Of a DNA stretch of 64,000 bases, positions 16,641 to 49,523 are shown piece by piece. Every line of letters starts with the position of its first letter. Positions within the stretch are counted from its first letter, which is position 1. The position numbers were made by a program, and so were the translations under genes. Source of the DNA: Polytrichum commune (taxonomy: Eukaryota > Streptophyta > Polytrichopsida > Polytrichales > Polytrichaceae); assembly GCA_950295325.1 (NCBI GenBank), contig OX485808.1, forward strand, positions 1,056,501 through 1,120,500. Direction: 5' to 3'. The notes beneath the pieces were generated by a model. That model had not been told where the DNA came from. It did no database searches and worked only from the letters and a program-made list of their open reading frames with translations.

Positions 16641-19574
16641 TCTTGGCAGGCCATTAAAAGACTATAACACTTTGTATAAATGACCCTATATAAGGTTCCA
16701 CCTTAAGGGCCCAGCAAAGGGAGGTTAAAAAACTCAGCCGTAGATCCAGAACTTGCATCTAAGGTCCTAAAAGTTTACCTAATCGTATAATAAGAGGAAG
16801 CCAACCTCAGTACTTCCTTTCCAAGAGTAAACCACATTAGCAGTTTACTCTAAGTAACTTCTGGGATTAGGGTAAACGTGACGTGAGTTTGTAGGAAGTG
16901 GAAGTGACTGACTTCAAGCTTTGAACGTCAAAGATAGCAAATGGCTAAAGAACAGGTAAAATACTCATTGAAAGTAATGAGTATTGTGTATGATGGGGAT
17001 ACTAAATGTTTGATTATGCTGTATAAGTTTGTGTGACATAGATAACAATTGGGTTCTGCTGTAATTCACCTCGTGTACGTTACTAACCCTCTCCGTGGAT
17101 TTGGTTGGTGGCATGGGCACAGGTGAGGCAGACCCTTCACAAATATGACGGCCACATTAGGTTTTGTATACCATCTGATTGCAAAATAGTGTGTGTAGAT
17201 GAAGGTTACATATAATATATGCAATGACCAGTTTTAGTCTACATTGCAAGTTATTGAGCATTTGATCGGTGTTACCATTTTTACATTTGATTTATTGGAG
17301 CTCAGTTGTAAGGAGACTATGATAGGGTTTACATTGGAAAACCTTAGTATTATGGAATACTCCAAGGTTTTACTTGTAACAGAGATCTTTGTAAGAAGCT
17401 CCAAAGTGTTATGTTTTAGCATTTGCATTGCAATGGGATGGGGGAATGATCCCACCCACCCTCCCATGTTTTGATAGATACATAGATATATGGAAGAATG
17501 GTATGGCCTCTTGCCAAGAGGATGTTATGTGAAAAAGAACTATGCTTGAAAGTAAGCTTAGCTTCTCTCAAGAAATGCCCAACTCTATATATATATATAT
17601 ATATTTGCACATTCGGCTAGATAAAAGACACATAATAACAAAGGGAGAAATCTAGAAGTGTTTTACAATGGAACAATGCTTTGAAGAAAGACCAGTAGTT
17701 AGTATGTGGCCCTTATATATGAAATTTTGACTAGTCCAAGGTAGTGTCTAGGGAGATTTTTGAGCATAATCGGTCAAAATCCTAGTGTTTCCAAGTCCAA
17801 CCGGTTATATGTTGTCTTGAACTTCAACCGAGATATTCGAAACTCGACCAATTCATCTATACCTAGAAATTGGTTCTCCATGTTCACTAGTCCAAAGGAG
17901 AGGGTCCAACAAAATGGAGCAATCCTATTGGCTGAGAGGTGTAAATTGGACTAAAAGCCAAAGCACCCCTTGATGGACCTTACTTTTGGATTCAAGATTG
18001 GTTTCTCAGACAAGGAGTATGTTCGGTGTGAGGACGACCAAGATTTGGCATGAAAGTAATGCCACGTTAGTGCCACTACATCTTTTCATACCCTAGTGTA
18101 AACTTTTTGAGTCTAAACAGTTCACTCTCGACCAATAGGCTCGCTTGATTTTGGAGTTTCTTTGGTCTTGGACTAGTGTAGACCCACCCTAAGGTGTTGT
18201 ATGTATTATGTTGGGACTCAAATCAATGATAGGTTTTCTTGTATCTTGTGTTACTTTCTAGTAACAAATTGGGCTAGTATCATGTAAGAAGATATGCAAA
18301 TTACAACTTGAAGTTTACCTATATTAGAATGACCCCTATTTTTGATCAAGCAACATCTTTATTATGAATGGCGTCAACCATCCTGCAAATATGATTAATT
18401 TATGATAAATAAAATAAAATAAAAGTAACGTCGGGGTTTGGTTTATACACCGATGTGAATGGGAGCCCGTTCCTCTATACCATGTTCATATTGGGTATTA
18501 ATGAATAGAAATACTGGACCCAATTACCCCAAGCCAAACATGCTAATTATAAGTGGACATGGAATTTTGGGACATGTGTGTACCTCTCTTCCATGCATGC
18601 TAAAAAGTTAATGCATATATATTGTGACTGATTCATTTCAAATATGTATGTTCAAATGATTCGAAATCTTGAAGTTAATTTTGGTGCTAAAGCAAGGAGA
18701 GAGAGGGCATTATCACATATGAGTGTATCTCTCGCTCATTCATCCAACACAAAAACGACAAGAGCATGATTTATTTTTAAAGATCTTGAATTAGTCCATT
18801 TCAAGTCTATTCAAATGAATTGGCCACAAACCTACAAAGATCAAGTTTTTATGTTGGATGAATGAGAGATAGTGTACACTTATATGCTACAATGCTCCAT
18901 CTTTCTAACTCTACTAGAAAAAATAACAGCCTCTAGACAACATGCTATCTCAAGGTTTTGTGGGTAGACAAATGAGAGGCATCCTCAAATGCAAAAATTC
19001 CCTCTCACCTTATTATGATACCTCAAACATAAGAGACATAGACTGTCGGTCCCCAGAGTTACATTAGAAGCAACAATTTTTTCTGTACAATTTATCACTA
19101 CATTTGGCGCTAAAACTACAAATGGAATCTCCATTATTATTCATCCATGATCTCCAGCATACTCCCCCAAAACCAGAAAAATGGACGGAATCACCAAAGT
19201 TAGGATGAATATGCTCACGTTTTGAAGTAAAACTGGCAATTGAATTGGGGCTCGAGTTAGTGTCACATCTGCACCCCACATTCATGAATGACCGGGGGTT
19301 AAGAATCCTATCGGTATCTAATAACCATCTTATTTGGTGCCCTCTAGCGTACCTTTACAGTTATCATTCACATGTGGCTTCATCACTTCATTGTTGCTAG
19401 TGTCATCGTTGCTTCCAAGTATCTCCCAATGCCTTTCAATTCAACATTCTATCCAATTAAGAGTTAGTTTCCATGGAGGTTGTTTGTCAAATTCTAGTGG
19501 AATAATTAAATCACATGGTGGCATCTACATTCCCATTAGAATATGGTGGGTGAGCGGCCAACATGGAAACTAAC
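16641..19574. other. Intergenic DNA with no recognised gene
   Basis: Only short open frames are present. The notable item is a dispersed repeat copy at 17752-17885 whose partner is at 48942-49155. I see no RNA gene and no complete element. Confidence 0.5.
17752..17885. repeat. Dispersed repeat, copy A
   Basis: Blocks shared in the same order with 48942-49155 include 'GGGAGATTTTT(G/T)AGCATAATCG', 'GCAAGTCCAA' or 'CCAAGTCCAA', 'GTCTTGAACT(T/C)CAACCG' and 'GGTTCTCC'. The partner copy has about 90 bp of extra sequence in the middle. The element type is unknown. Confidence 0.65.
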
Positions 19575-19577
19575 TTA

Positions 19578-20416
19578 GGCCCTTGCCACACGAGAGGAAA
19601 CTTGCATGAACGGTAGTGAGTTGGATGAATAGCATTGGTTCAAATGAGCAAGTGGTTGCCACATGAGAGGAAGTATGGGGAGTGGCAACAATGACTTTTT
19701 TAGCTTTGGATTTTGCTTTGGATCTTGCTTCGGGATCTACTTGGCAATAAAGTAGAGTGACATGGCACAATAAATGTAGTTCGCAACTACCGGGCACTAC
19801 TGTAGTGCCCGGAAGTCCACAATATAAGGCCCTTGCCACACGAGAGGCAGAGGAAGTTTCACAACTTCCTCCAACATGGCGTGAACATGGCACCTTGCCC
19901 AAGAAAAGTCTCCTTTTCCTCGTTTTTCTCCTTATATTGTGGGACTTCCGGGCACTAGTGCCTGGTAGTTGCGAACTACATTTATTGTGCCATGTCACTC
20001 TACTTTATTGCCAAGTAGATCCCGAAGCAAGATCCAAAGCAAAATCTGAAGCTAAAAAGTCATTGTTGCCACTCCCCATACTTCCTCTCATGTGGCAACC
20101 ACTTGCTCATTTGAACCAATGCTATTCATCCAACTCATTGCCGTTCCTCCCGTGTGGTTTGGGCCACCCTTGTGTAGGCATTAAAATCCACTACGTAGGA
20201 TACGCGGATGATTAGGTAATAAAAGTGGCCGGGCCAAAAAACTTAGTTGTCAAGATCGGAGATAAGGTGAAAGAGTTCCTAACAAAGGAATTTGAACTGA
20301 AACTAGACGAAGAAAAAAGCTAAGGAGAAAAACGAGGAAAAGGAGACTTTTCTTGGGCAAGGTGCCATGTTGGAGGAAGTTGTGAAACTTCCTCTGCCTC
20401 TCGTGTGGCAAGGGTC
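19578..20416. mobile_element. Foldback element with TTA flanks and internal rearranged arms
   Basis: The ends are GGCCCTTGCCACACGAGAGG and its inverse CCTCTCGTGTGGCAAGGGTC, each flanked by TTA (19575-19577 and 20417-20419), as in PIF/Harbinger-type insertions. Inside, arm A (19578-19827) is inverted as A' (19931-20158), and block B (19828-19930) is inverted as B' (20318-20416). The order is A, B, A', a unique segment, B'. The unique segment plus B' reads as a group II intron reverse transcriptase fragment. Open frames on opposite strands share the same N-terminal peptide MTWHNKCSSQLPGT, which confirms the inversion. No transposase is present, so mobilisation would need help from elsewhere. 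The PIF/Harbinger assignment rests on TTA alone. Confidence 0.8.
20180..20365 (+). pseudogene. Fragment of a group II intron reverse transcriptase/maturase
   Basis: The frame reads HYVGYADD, a stop codon at 20213-20215, then VIKVAGPKNLVVKIGDKVKE and FLTKEFELKLDEEK. After a one-base frameshift it continues AKEKNEEKETFLGQ. Bacterial and organellar group II RTs have a 'hYvRYADDf.i' catalytic block, then a helix ending 'L.L.LS.eKT', then a short linker to 'FLG'; all of these are present in order. YADD is at 20201-20212 and FLG at 20349-20357. The stop and the frameshift make it non-functional. Plant mitochondrial maturase DNA is a likely source, but a nuclear maturase or another retroelement RT is not excluded. 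Confidence 0.65.
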
Positions 20417-21540
20417 TTAAGGACACCAAAAACATTCAGTCATAAACTTTTTGACTTTTGAACACACTCTTCAAAAGTTAAGCTTAAGTTACATTGTTGT
20501 ACTTACAAGTTACACCATGTCTGTCTATGTGAGTCATGACCCACGACCATCCATACCTATTCGTGCGGGCCATAAATGAACGGGTACTACCATCTAGTGG
20601 CTCTCACTGACCAAATTGGAGCTGAAAGTGGCCCTTGTTGGTAGGAGCCATGCATTGGTCACCCCCACCAGTAATTGTGGGCATGCTATTAGTCAAACAA
20701 GTGACCATGGCTTAAGTTATTGATAGTGAGCAGTCACAATGGTCACTTCAAACATGATGACAAAATTATGGTTGCAAGATTGAAATTGTAAGTAAGTACA
20801 CATATTAAGTCACATATGCATGTCAAAACCAAATATCCTTGTGTGTGTGTGTGGGAGGTTATAATTAGCAATCCACAATGGCAACCCACAATGCTTGAGA
20901 TGTTGCTTCAAAAGTGATGCACCTTGCTATAGTACATACTTACCTCATGAACAGTGTACATACCACCAACTTTCAAACATATTCTAAGCTACATTCAAAG
21001 TTGGTTTACACTATGGACCATGAAGTTGTCCCATGGCGATGTAAGAGCGCTAATTGGATGTTGAACTTGTCCCGGGATCACTTCAGTTTACACTGGGGGG
21101 AAAAATGGCAGAGGGACCATGAAGGTCGAGGTCCTCAAAATTTAATTTTCAAGGCTTAATAAATGCATTGACATGGTCCAACGGGTTTTGCAGTGAGAGA
21201 GGCAAGAGAGGTGGTATGGTAGGAAAAAGCAATGGCCCATGGCAAAGAAATGCTCTTATAGTAATTTTCAATAAGTCTTTTTTGGGGGGCTTTATATACA
21301 CCTCTTCCAACTAAGCAAGGCTCACAGGCTCACTTTTCGGTATTCATATGATATAATGAATCTTGAGAAGCATGTCCAACCTCTATGTGCCTAGATCATA
21401 TCATAGCCCATGAGATATACTATTTCTTCCATACCCTACCCCTTAAACTTGCTCCCACATGTTTCATCAAACAATGTGGGACATCTAGAACTCAAGAATT
21501 TGAGTGCAAATTTGTTTTTTTGGGTCTACCAACCGATGTA

Positions 21541-32235: not shown

Positions 32236-32721
32236 GGGCCACTTCACACTATGGTTGTCCAAGTCGAGAGGCCGTGGGATTGAAAGGCCAAACTTTGTTG
32301 AGAGTCCAAAGAAACATGCTGAAAATAGCCAATAAAGTATAGGAATTGGAGCCTTCGGCCGAGCATAGTGTGAAGCCTCCAAAGGCCAAGCCCAAAGTCC
32401 AAAGGAAGAAGGAACATCCCATTTTATTCCTTGTCCAAAACAACCCCTCCAACCTAACAGCCAAGATCTTGTCAAAGATTGATTTTTTTTTAAAAAATTG
32501 ACGGCCTCTCGACCGTAGTTTGGGTTTCCATTCATGTTTGACCCAAACTTCCTTCAAGAGTCCGTCGCCTTGATAAAAAAAAGTGTGCATTTTAAATTGC
32601 AATGGCCTTTGAACTTTGGCCTCTTGTGTGAAGGGTTGAGAAGCCAAATTCTTGGTTTCTTGTAATCTGATTAGTGGAAATCGACGGCCTCTTGATCTTC
32701 AACCATAGTGTAAACTAGCCC
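32236..32721. mobile_element. MITE with GGGCCACTTCACACTATGG termini and a TTA duplication
   Basis: The left end is GGGCCACTTCACACTATGGT and the right end, inverted, is GGGCTAGTTTACACTATGGT; a shared AGAGGCCGT block lies about 40 bp in. TTA flanks both sides (32233-32235 and 32722-32724). A TTA duplication with GGGC-type ends fits Tourist-like MITEs of PIF/Harbinger. Length is 486 bp and no ORF is conserved. Confidence 0.8.
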
Positions 32722-49155: not shown

Positions 49156-49201
49156 AGTTCAGACCTTGGAAAACTAACCAACTAATTCAACTATTAGTTA
49201 A

Positions 49202-49523
49202 CTACACTAAATATGATATTTAGTGTTAAATATACTAAATACGAACGCATACACTAAATATCACTAACCCTATGAAAGTAAGTAAAATTAACTATGAACT
49301 CAAACACTAAATTTCAACTATGGTAATGTGTGGAAATCACATGCACAAATTTAGTGTTAGTAAGGATATGAAATTAAAATTAACAATGATAAAAGGAGAA
49401 GGCGAGCGGCTAGTAGGGAAGGTGGTGGCGCATTTATGTCTAACACTAATTATCAAATAATTGAAATTTAGTGTTGAACATGATAGGCTAGTAACAACAC
49501 TAAATACAATCAAACACTATTCA
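49202..49523. mobile_element. MITE with CTACACTAAATA termini, copy 3 (right end degraded)
   Basis: It begins CTACACTAAATATGATATTT and follows the interior of the 21754-22074 copy block by block. A short unrelated insertion (GGCGAGCGGCTAGTAGGG and following) lies near 49400. The right end stops at 'CAAACACTATT' without the final TTTAGTGTAG, so this copy is truncated or mutated at one terminus. Confidence 0.75.

Follow-up and report, generated by a model that had tools for sequence, protein, structure and literature searches.

The window, a stretch of 64,000 nucleotides of the Polytrichum commune genome (C6:1056501-1120500), contains at positions 19578-20416 two MITEs of PIF/Harbinger type, members of a single family, of which one is nested within the other in reverse orientation, together with a 155-bp segment, referred to here as X, which lies between the right end of the inner element and the target-site duplication belonging to that end. 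The outer edges of the locus are flanked on both sides by TTA (19575-19577 and 20417-20419), and its blocks follow the order A-B-A'-X-B' with inverted repeats, as had been described in an earlier note on this DNA. The inverted arms form four complementary pairs of 106 nt (96%), 93 nt (98%), 56 nt (98%) and 51 nt (100%), and arms of 51-106 nt at 96-100% complementarity are far above chance. Among the literature matches listed, no paper dealt with this particular locus.

Two nested MITEs of one family

The outer element, MITE-2, is split into two parts. Its left part (block A, 19578-19827, minus strand) follows the left TTA target-site duplication at 19575-19577 and terminates in an internal TAA (19825-19827), which is the left target-site duplication of the inner element; its right part (block B', 20324-20416, minus strand) is followed by the right TTA duplication at 20417-20419. 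The inner element, MITE-1 (blocks B-A', 19828-20165, plus strand), is complete with 338 bp, starts with GGCCCTTGCC and ends with TTTGGGCC. It carries an 11-bp insertion, AACATGGCGTG, at 19873-19883 on the plus strand, which none of the other seven aligned sequences shares; the alignment of eight comprises MITE-1, the joined halves of MITE-2 and six solo copies. A single unassigned base, the A at 20166, stands between the end of MITE-1 (20165) and X (20166-20320, plus strand), and the right TAA target-site duplication of MITE-1 (20321-20323) is located beyond X. These features were assigned from the window sequence, the comparison of the arms, the genome copies with their flanks, and the alignment, in which both window copies belong to the MITE family.

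When the genome (408 Mb in 64 contigs, C1-C7 being 42-78 Mb each) was searched with 19574-20422, at least 41 other near-full-length matches to 19828-20165 were found at 89-95% identity, a lower bound with 40 of the 127 candidates scored. These matches cover about positions 239-261 to 581-593 of the query, which correspond to window 19828-20165, and none of the 41 listed continues into X. The members of the family are short (about 330 bp), non-coding and present in many copies. In the six solo copies one end reads GGCCCTT(G/C/A)CCACAC(G/A)AGAGG and the other CCTCCCGTGTGGTTTGGGCC, and the flanking triplets are TTA/TTA, TGA/TGA, TAA/TTA, TGA/TGA, TAA/TAA and TAA/TAA; equal 3-bp TNA flanks are therefore present in five of the six, L005 with TAA/TTA being the exception. 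As TAA stands on both sides of the split in MITE-2, and the split site is a single uninterrupted TTA in all six aligned solo copies, MITE-1 has entered MITE-2, and the opposite orientation of the two copies accounts for the palindrome. It had been proposed earlier that block B is an inverted copy of the 3' part of a maturase; this has to be given up, as both B and B' are MITE sequence, and B' was present in each of the six aligned solo copies.

The assignment to PIF/Harbinger is based on several features. A 3-bp target duplication of the TAA/TTA type is present around both window elements (TTA/TTA for MITE-2 and TAA/TAA, the latter copy beyond X, for MITE-1), and the TIRs begin with GG(G/C)CC, the left one being GGCCCTTGCCACACGAGAGG and the right one TTTGGGCC. 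With up to two mismatches allowed, the terminal pattern gave 52+42 = 94 matches in the genome, compared with 0+0 for a reversed control. The target triplet and GG(G/C)CC ends listed for Harbinger in a published table (PMC4423477) agree with those of the window MITEs. Furthermore, the transposase domain DDE_Tnp_4 (PF13359) has at least 150 matches in the genome (150 of 990 candidates scored). One of them is situated 0.95 kb inward from a family end at C7:23555249 and belongs to a 4.06-kb element (L046, 153-4213) flanked by TTA/TTA, which has the left TIR of the MITE family with one mismatch, a right end with six mismatches to the family TIR, and an ORF of which a 132-aa piece matches DDE_Tnp_4 at E 2.5e-24. 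A second candidate transposase element (L047) has a good end on one side only. The window family thus shares with PIF/Harbinger MITEs the 3-bp duplication, the type of ends, the short non-coding body, the high copy number and an element that codes for transposase and has the family's left end, and differs in nothing essential, the family-specific sequence and the TGA triplet in two of the six solo copies aside. MITEs of this kind are called Tourist-like. Another non-autonomous element, distinct from this family but sharing its Harbinger TIR and flanked by TTA, was also observed at about L043:3414-3830 (C5:23786711); where its TIR ends, the first bases are similar to those found there in the 4-kb element L046.

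X and its relatives in the genome

X is not MITE sequence, and reads KIHYVGYADD-stop-VIKVAGPKNLVVKIGDKVKEFLTKEFELKLDEEKS. A series of three RT motifs had been noted earlier, of which HYVGYADD and LKLDEEK were confirmed; X contains both in a single frame, where a TAG stop immediately follows YADD. The third, ETFLG, was rejected as a maturase motif; it is a chance reading of MITE sequence in block B' (20324-20416), in another frame than HYVGYADD. The probable true continuation past X is ITHPATKKGKFLGTLIG, which is found in a shifted frame in the relative L010, and not in B'. The group II RT/maturase profile TIGR04416, from the NCBIfam library of bacterial and archaeal profiles, matched X alone at E 1e-4 with 21.6 bits (the cut-off of 300 is that of the whole protein), and X with the continuation borrowed from L010 at E 1e-6. 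For this X+L010 composite the sole PDB match up to E 10 was the group II protein LtrA (E 1.2e-4), and plasmid-borne bacterial maturases match X at up to 49% over 45 aa. A Pfam search of X returned RVT_1 only, with no maturase domain, and no Rfam match to domain V/VI of a group II ribozyme was found at the gathering threshold within the window. Judged by these profile and structure-database matches, X is a broken RT piece of group II intron maturase type. A copia or LINE RT, which the earlier note had named as what would speak against it, was not encountered as far as tested: Pfam gave RVT_1 and not the copia model, and LINE was rejected less directly, from the PDB search, whose only match up to E 10 was LtrA. 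Going by their published description (PMC10012718), group II RT motifs are common to X and the moss and liverwort maturases mat-nuc1 and mat-free as well as degenerate mitochondrial intron maturases, whereas X is a 155-bp broken piece.

Among the intact ORFs of the genome, the one closest to the X+L010 composite is nuclear and maturase-like, with 470 aa (L020:331-1740; C7:27072148-27073557) and 43% over query residues 1-72. This ORF carries YGDQ instead of YADD, matches TIGR04416 at E 3.6e-34 and Intron_maturas2 at E 2.2e-24, and may be a counterpart of the moss nuclear maturase mat-nuc1. Another intact maturase ORF, of 460 aa and with FADD, was seen on the minus strand at L021:1282-2661 (C2:28574853-28576232), and a broken relative of it (40%) lies in a mitochondrial DNA-derived block at C7:17078164. 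In the genome protein searches the relationship of X to either ORF was too distant for X to be a close copy of it. A matK-like ORF of 516 aa was also noticed on contig C8 (146,561 bp).

Eight other partial DNA matches to X, 85-98% identical, were found in its own genome, L037 overlaps X weakly (76% over 41 bp), and a search with L010, which extends past X, gave further matches, part of which were examined. Fifteen loci were examined (L010-L016, L029, L036-L042), and 13 were counted as independent, since L011/L012 and L015/L042 (94% over 1,108 bp) are duplicates. L010, L014 and L037 bridge X and its continuation, and L029, L036 and L038-L041 overlap the L010 continuation only. The left edge of X, CCCTTGTG, is common to X, L011/L012 and L016 within one base (window 20167, L012:1501, L016:1501) in unrelated surroundings, and simple random shards do not explain it. 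The right edges are not shared, the pieces of the X family starting and breaking off in many places. Five loci include the codon that follows YADD: it is TAG in the window, L011, L012 and L014, and CAG in L016. If the reading frame was already decayed in the mitochondrial source, the stop common to these four would be accounted for. A degenerated or unrecognizable maturase in the moss mitochondrial intron cox1i511g2 is in print (PMC10012718).

No copy of the MITE family was found directly beside the X piece at any of the eight further matches to X. The nearest lies 0.4 kb from the X piece at L012, with its intact end at 0.7 kb, and the neighbour of L016, at 2.8 kb, is a different element with the same TIR. 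ARAGORN predicted no tRNA in 13 X-family/maturase loci or in seven loci related to mitochondrial DNA. An Rfam scan of 14 loci gave the snoRNA snoZ102_R77 at L037:891-970, just above its gathering score, and two microRNA-like matches, both below theirs.

Mitochondrial DNA beside relatives of X

A 16-kb region of C7 (L044/L045, approximately C7:17068000-17082400) is largely a nuclear copy of plant mitochondrial DNA, containing cox3, nad1, cob (with a group I intron) and atp1 as well as group I/II introns. X itself has no match in this 16-kb copy. We used 14.4 kb of it as the mitochondrial reference, the last 1.6 kb of L045 being judged nuclear and dropped. The window matches this right, probably nuclear, end of L045 at 32424-32692 (79%) and 49165-49204 (93%), both of which are repeats.

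Stretches matching the reference were found next to X-family pieces at L010 (627 bp, 93%, at a distance of 0 bp), L038 (30 bp, at 0 bp), L039 (67 bp, at 25 bp) and L040 (110 bp, at 57 bp), and at L042 (30 bp, at 1 bp) with a weak match (E 0.004) seen at E 1e-2 only, whose reference piece sits past the last recognised cob exon. Mitochondrial shards are therefore present within 57 bp of X-family pieces at 4 of the 13 independent loci at E 1e-3, and at 5 of the 13 at E 1e-2. With both thresholds applied equally, one of the 19 control loci matched mitochondrial DNA, namely L021, which is the 66% maturase relative, and the window had no match. The controls include L018, L020, L021 and L031, and L030 was excluded as circular; seven loci fetched with a query containing the mitochondrial part of L010 all matched mitochondrial DNA, as expected. 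At L030:1501-1816 (in the region of C1:75693002) we observed a mosaic of three mitochondrial shards, two of them directly abutting.

The five loci were reached in different ways: L010 and L042 were found via X, L038 and L039 via the continuation, and the choice of L040 was not blind, in that its mitochondrial piece also matched the L010 query. Only L010 and L042/L015 among these five neighbours overlap X itself, L038, L039 and L040 having the continuation only. Pieces of the X family thus tend to sit in mosaic NUMTs, and X is probably a mitochondrial (NUMT) shard, the link to X itself being made by L010 and, weakly, by L042/L015.

The mitogenome of the host was not found in the assembly, where a COX1 search led to scattered nuclear pieces and to contig C9 (67,364 bp; L035). 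C9 was rejected as the host mitochondrial source, as its cox1 region looks fungal: to the eye, cox1 is split by introns with ORFs of LAGLIDADG/GIY-YIG appearance, and the contig is probably a contaminating fungal mitogenome.

Origin of the arrangement

The target duplication of MITE-1 should touch the end of the element, and X intervenes; a break that was repaired with a foreign piece is therefore the simplest history. MITE-2 would have inserted at TTA, and MITE-1 would then have inserted at TAA inside MITE-2, duplicating TAA. Later, MITE-1 may have suffered a break at its right end, the most likely cause being an incomplete excision cut made in trans by a putative Harbinger transposase; the break may have been sealed by a 155-bp mitochondrial piece derived from the decayed frame of a group II intron maturase, which would have separated the MITE-1 end from its TAA duplication. 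As MITE-1 is still present, one has to assume that the cut was one-sided or was joined again. We consider this account as a whole, nested Harbinger MITEs with mitochondrial filler at the right end of MITE-1, to be likely, our confidence being slightly lowered by the three of the five mitochondrial neighbours that touch only the continuation of X.

Two known systems resemble this history. In rice, excisions of DNA transposons mostly leave deletions or fillers, with filler of 1-123 bp in 58 of 94 cases (PMC4423477). As in those cases, a foreign segment sits at a transposon end, here X within 1 bp of the MITE-1 end and hence of the putative transposase cut site; on the other hand, X measures 155 bp against 1-123 bp in rice, and MITE-1 remains whereas the rice elements had been excised (PMC4423477). 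Mosaic NUMTs and organellar DNA used as filler at double-strand breaks have also been described (PMC7037861; PMC6215612). The likeness lies in short organellar shards that are joined to one another or to X-like pieces at several loci. The parts of the locus are of ordinary, known kinds; it is the arrangement that is instructive. Two ordinary processes are enough to produce what looks convincingly like an intron captured by a foldback element, and the junction is a clear example of probable organellar DNA lying between the end of a transposon and the target duplication that belongs to it. In addition, the shards keep pieces of a decayed maturase and could help to date its loss.

It is possible, though we think it unlikely, that X came in by aberrant transposition, i.e. 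that MITE-1 was excised together with 155 bp of flanking sequence derived from mitochondrial DNA and both were inserted at TAA. This would account directly for the right TAA beyond X, but MITE-1 is followed by ACC instead of the TNA triplet that stands beside all six solo copies, the right edge of X, GAAGAAAAAAGC, bears no resemblance to the TIR, and no other direct MITE-X junction was found among the genome matches listed, where the closest case, L012, has the two 0.4 kb apart. A somewhat less probable alternative concerns the source of X, which could have been nuclear instead of mitochondrial DNA, namely a maturase gene of the kind of the intact ORF L020 or pseudogenes of one. Although L020 is the closest intact relative of the composite, its identity is far from the 85-98% of the eight other DNA matches to X; the match between L020 and the X stretch is weak (33% over 45 aa, E 0.66, with L020 as query), YGDQ faces YADD, and several relatives of X adjoin mitochondrial shards.

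The shared left edge at three unrelated sites (the window, L011/L012 and L016) and the recurrent TAG would also suit a nuclear repeat of its own, with left edge CCCTTGTG, that once carried a group II-like RT and of which X is a scattered fragment. We regard this as improbable: the right edges differ, with pieces starting and breaking off in many places, some pieces are joined to mitochondrial DNA, and the shared stop fits a decayed frame in the mitochondrial source as well. Starting again from filler of mitochondrial origin, one could further suppose that breaks at Harbinger ends are a regular door of entry for mitochondrial DNA here, that cutting by the transposase is linked to the formation of mosaic NUMTs, and that the shared left edge marks a preferred end of the source molecule; taken jointly, we hold this to be a long shot.

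It can hardly be upheld that the locus is a true foldback transposon which took up intron DNA from an organelle and made an inverted duplicate of part of it. Long inverted arms with TTA flanks would suggest this, but the arms consist of two MITE copies of 330 bp, each with ends and target duplications of its own, and the solo copies contradict the reading; block B is MITE sequence, and of the 41 further MITE matches listed none extends into X. The search for further copies with the insert, which the earlier note had proposed, gave no sign of mobile cargo, and from its claim that an element had captured organellar intron DNA the single foldback with an inverted intron part falls away, while a DNA transposon targeting TTA and a group II RT of probable mitochondrial origin are retained.
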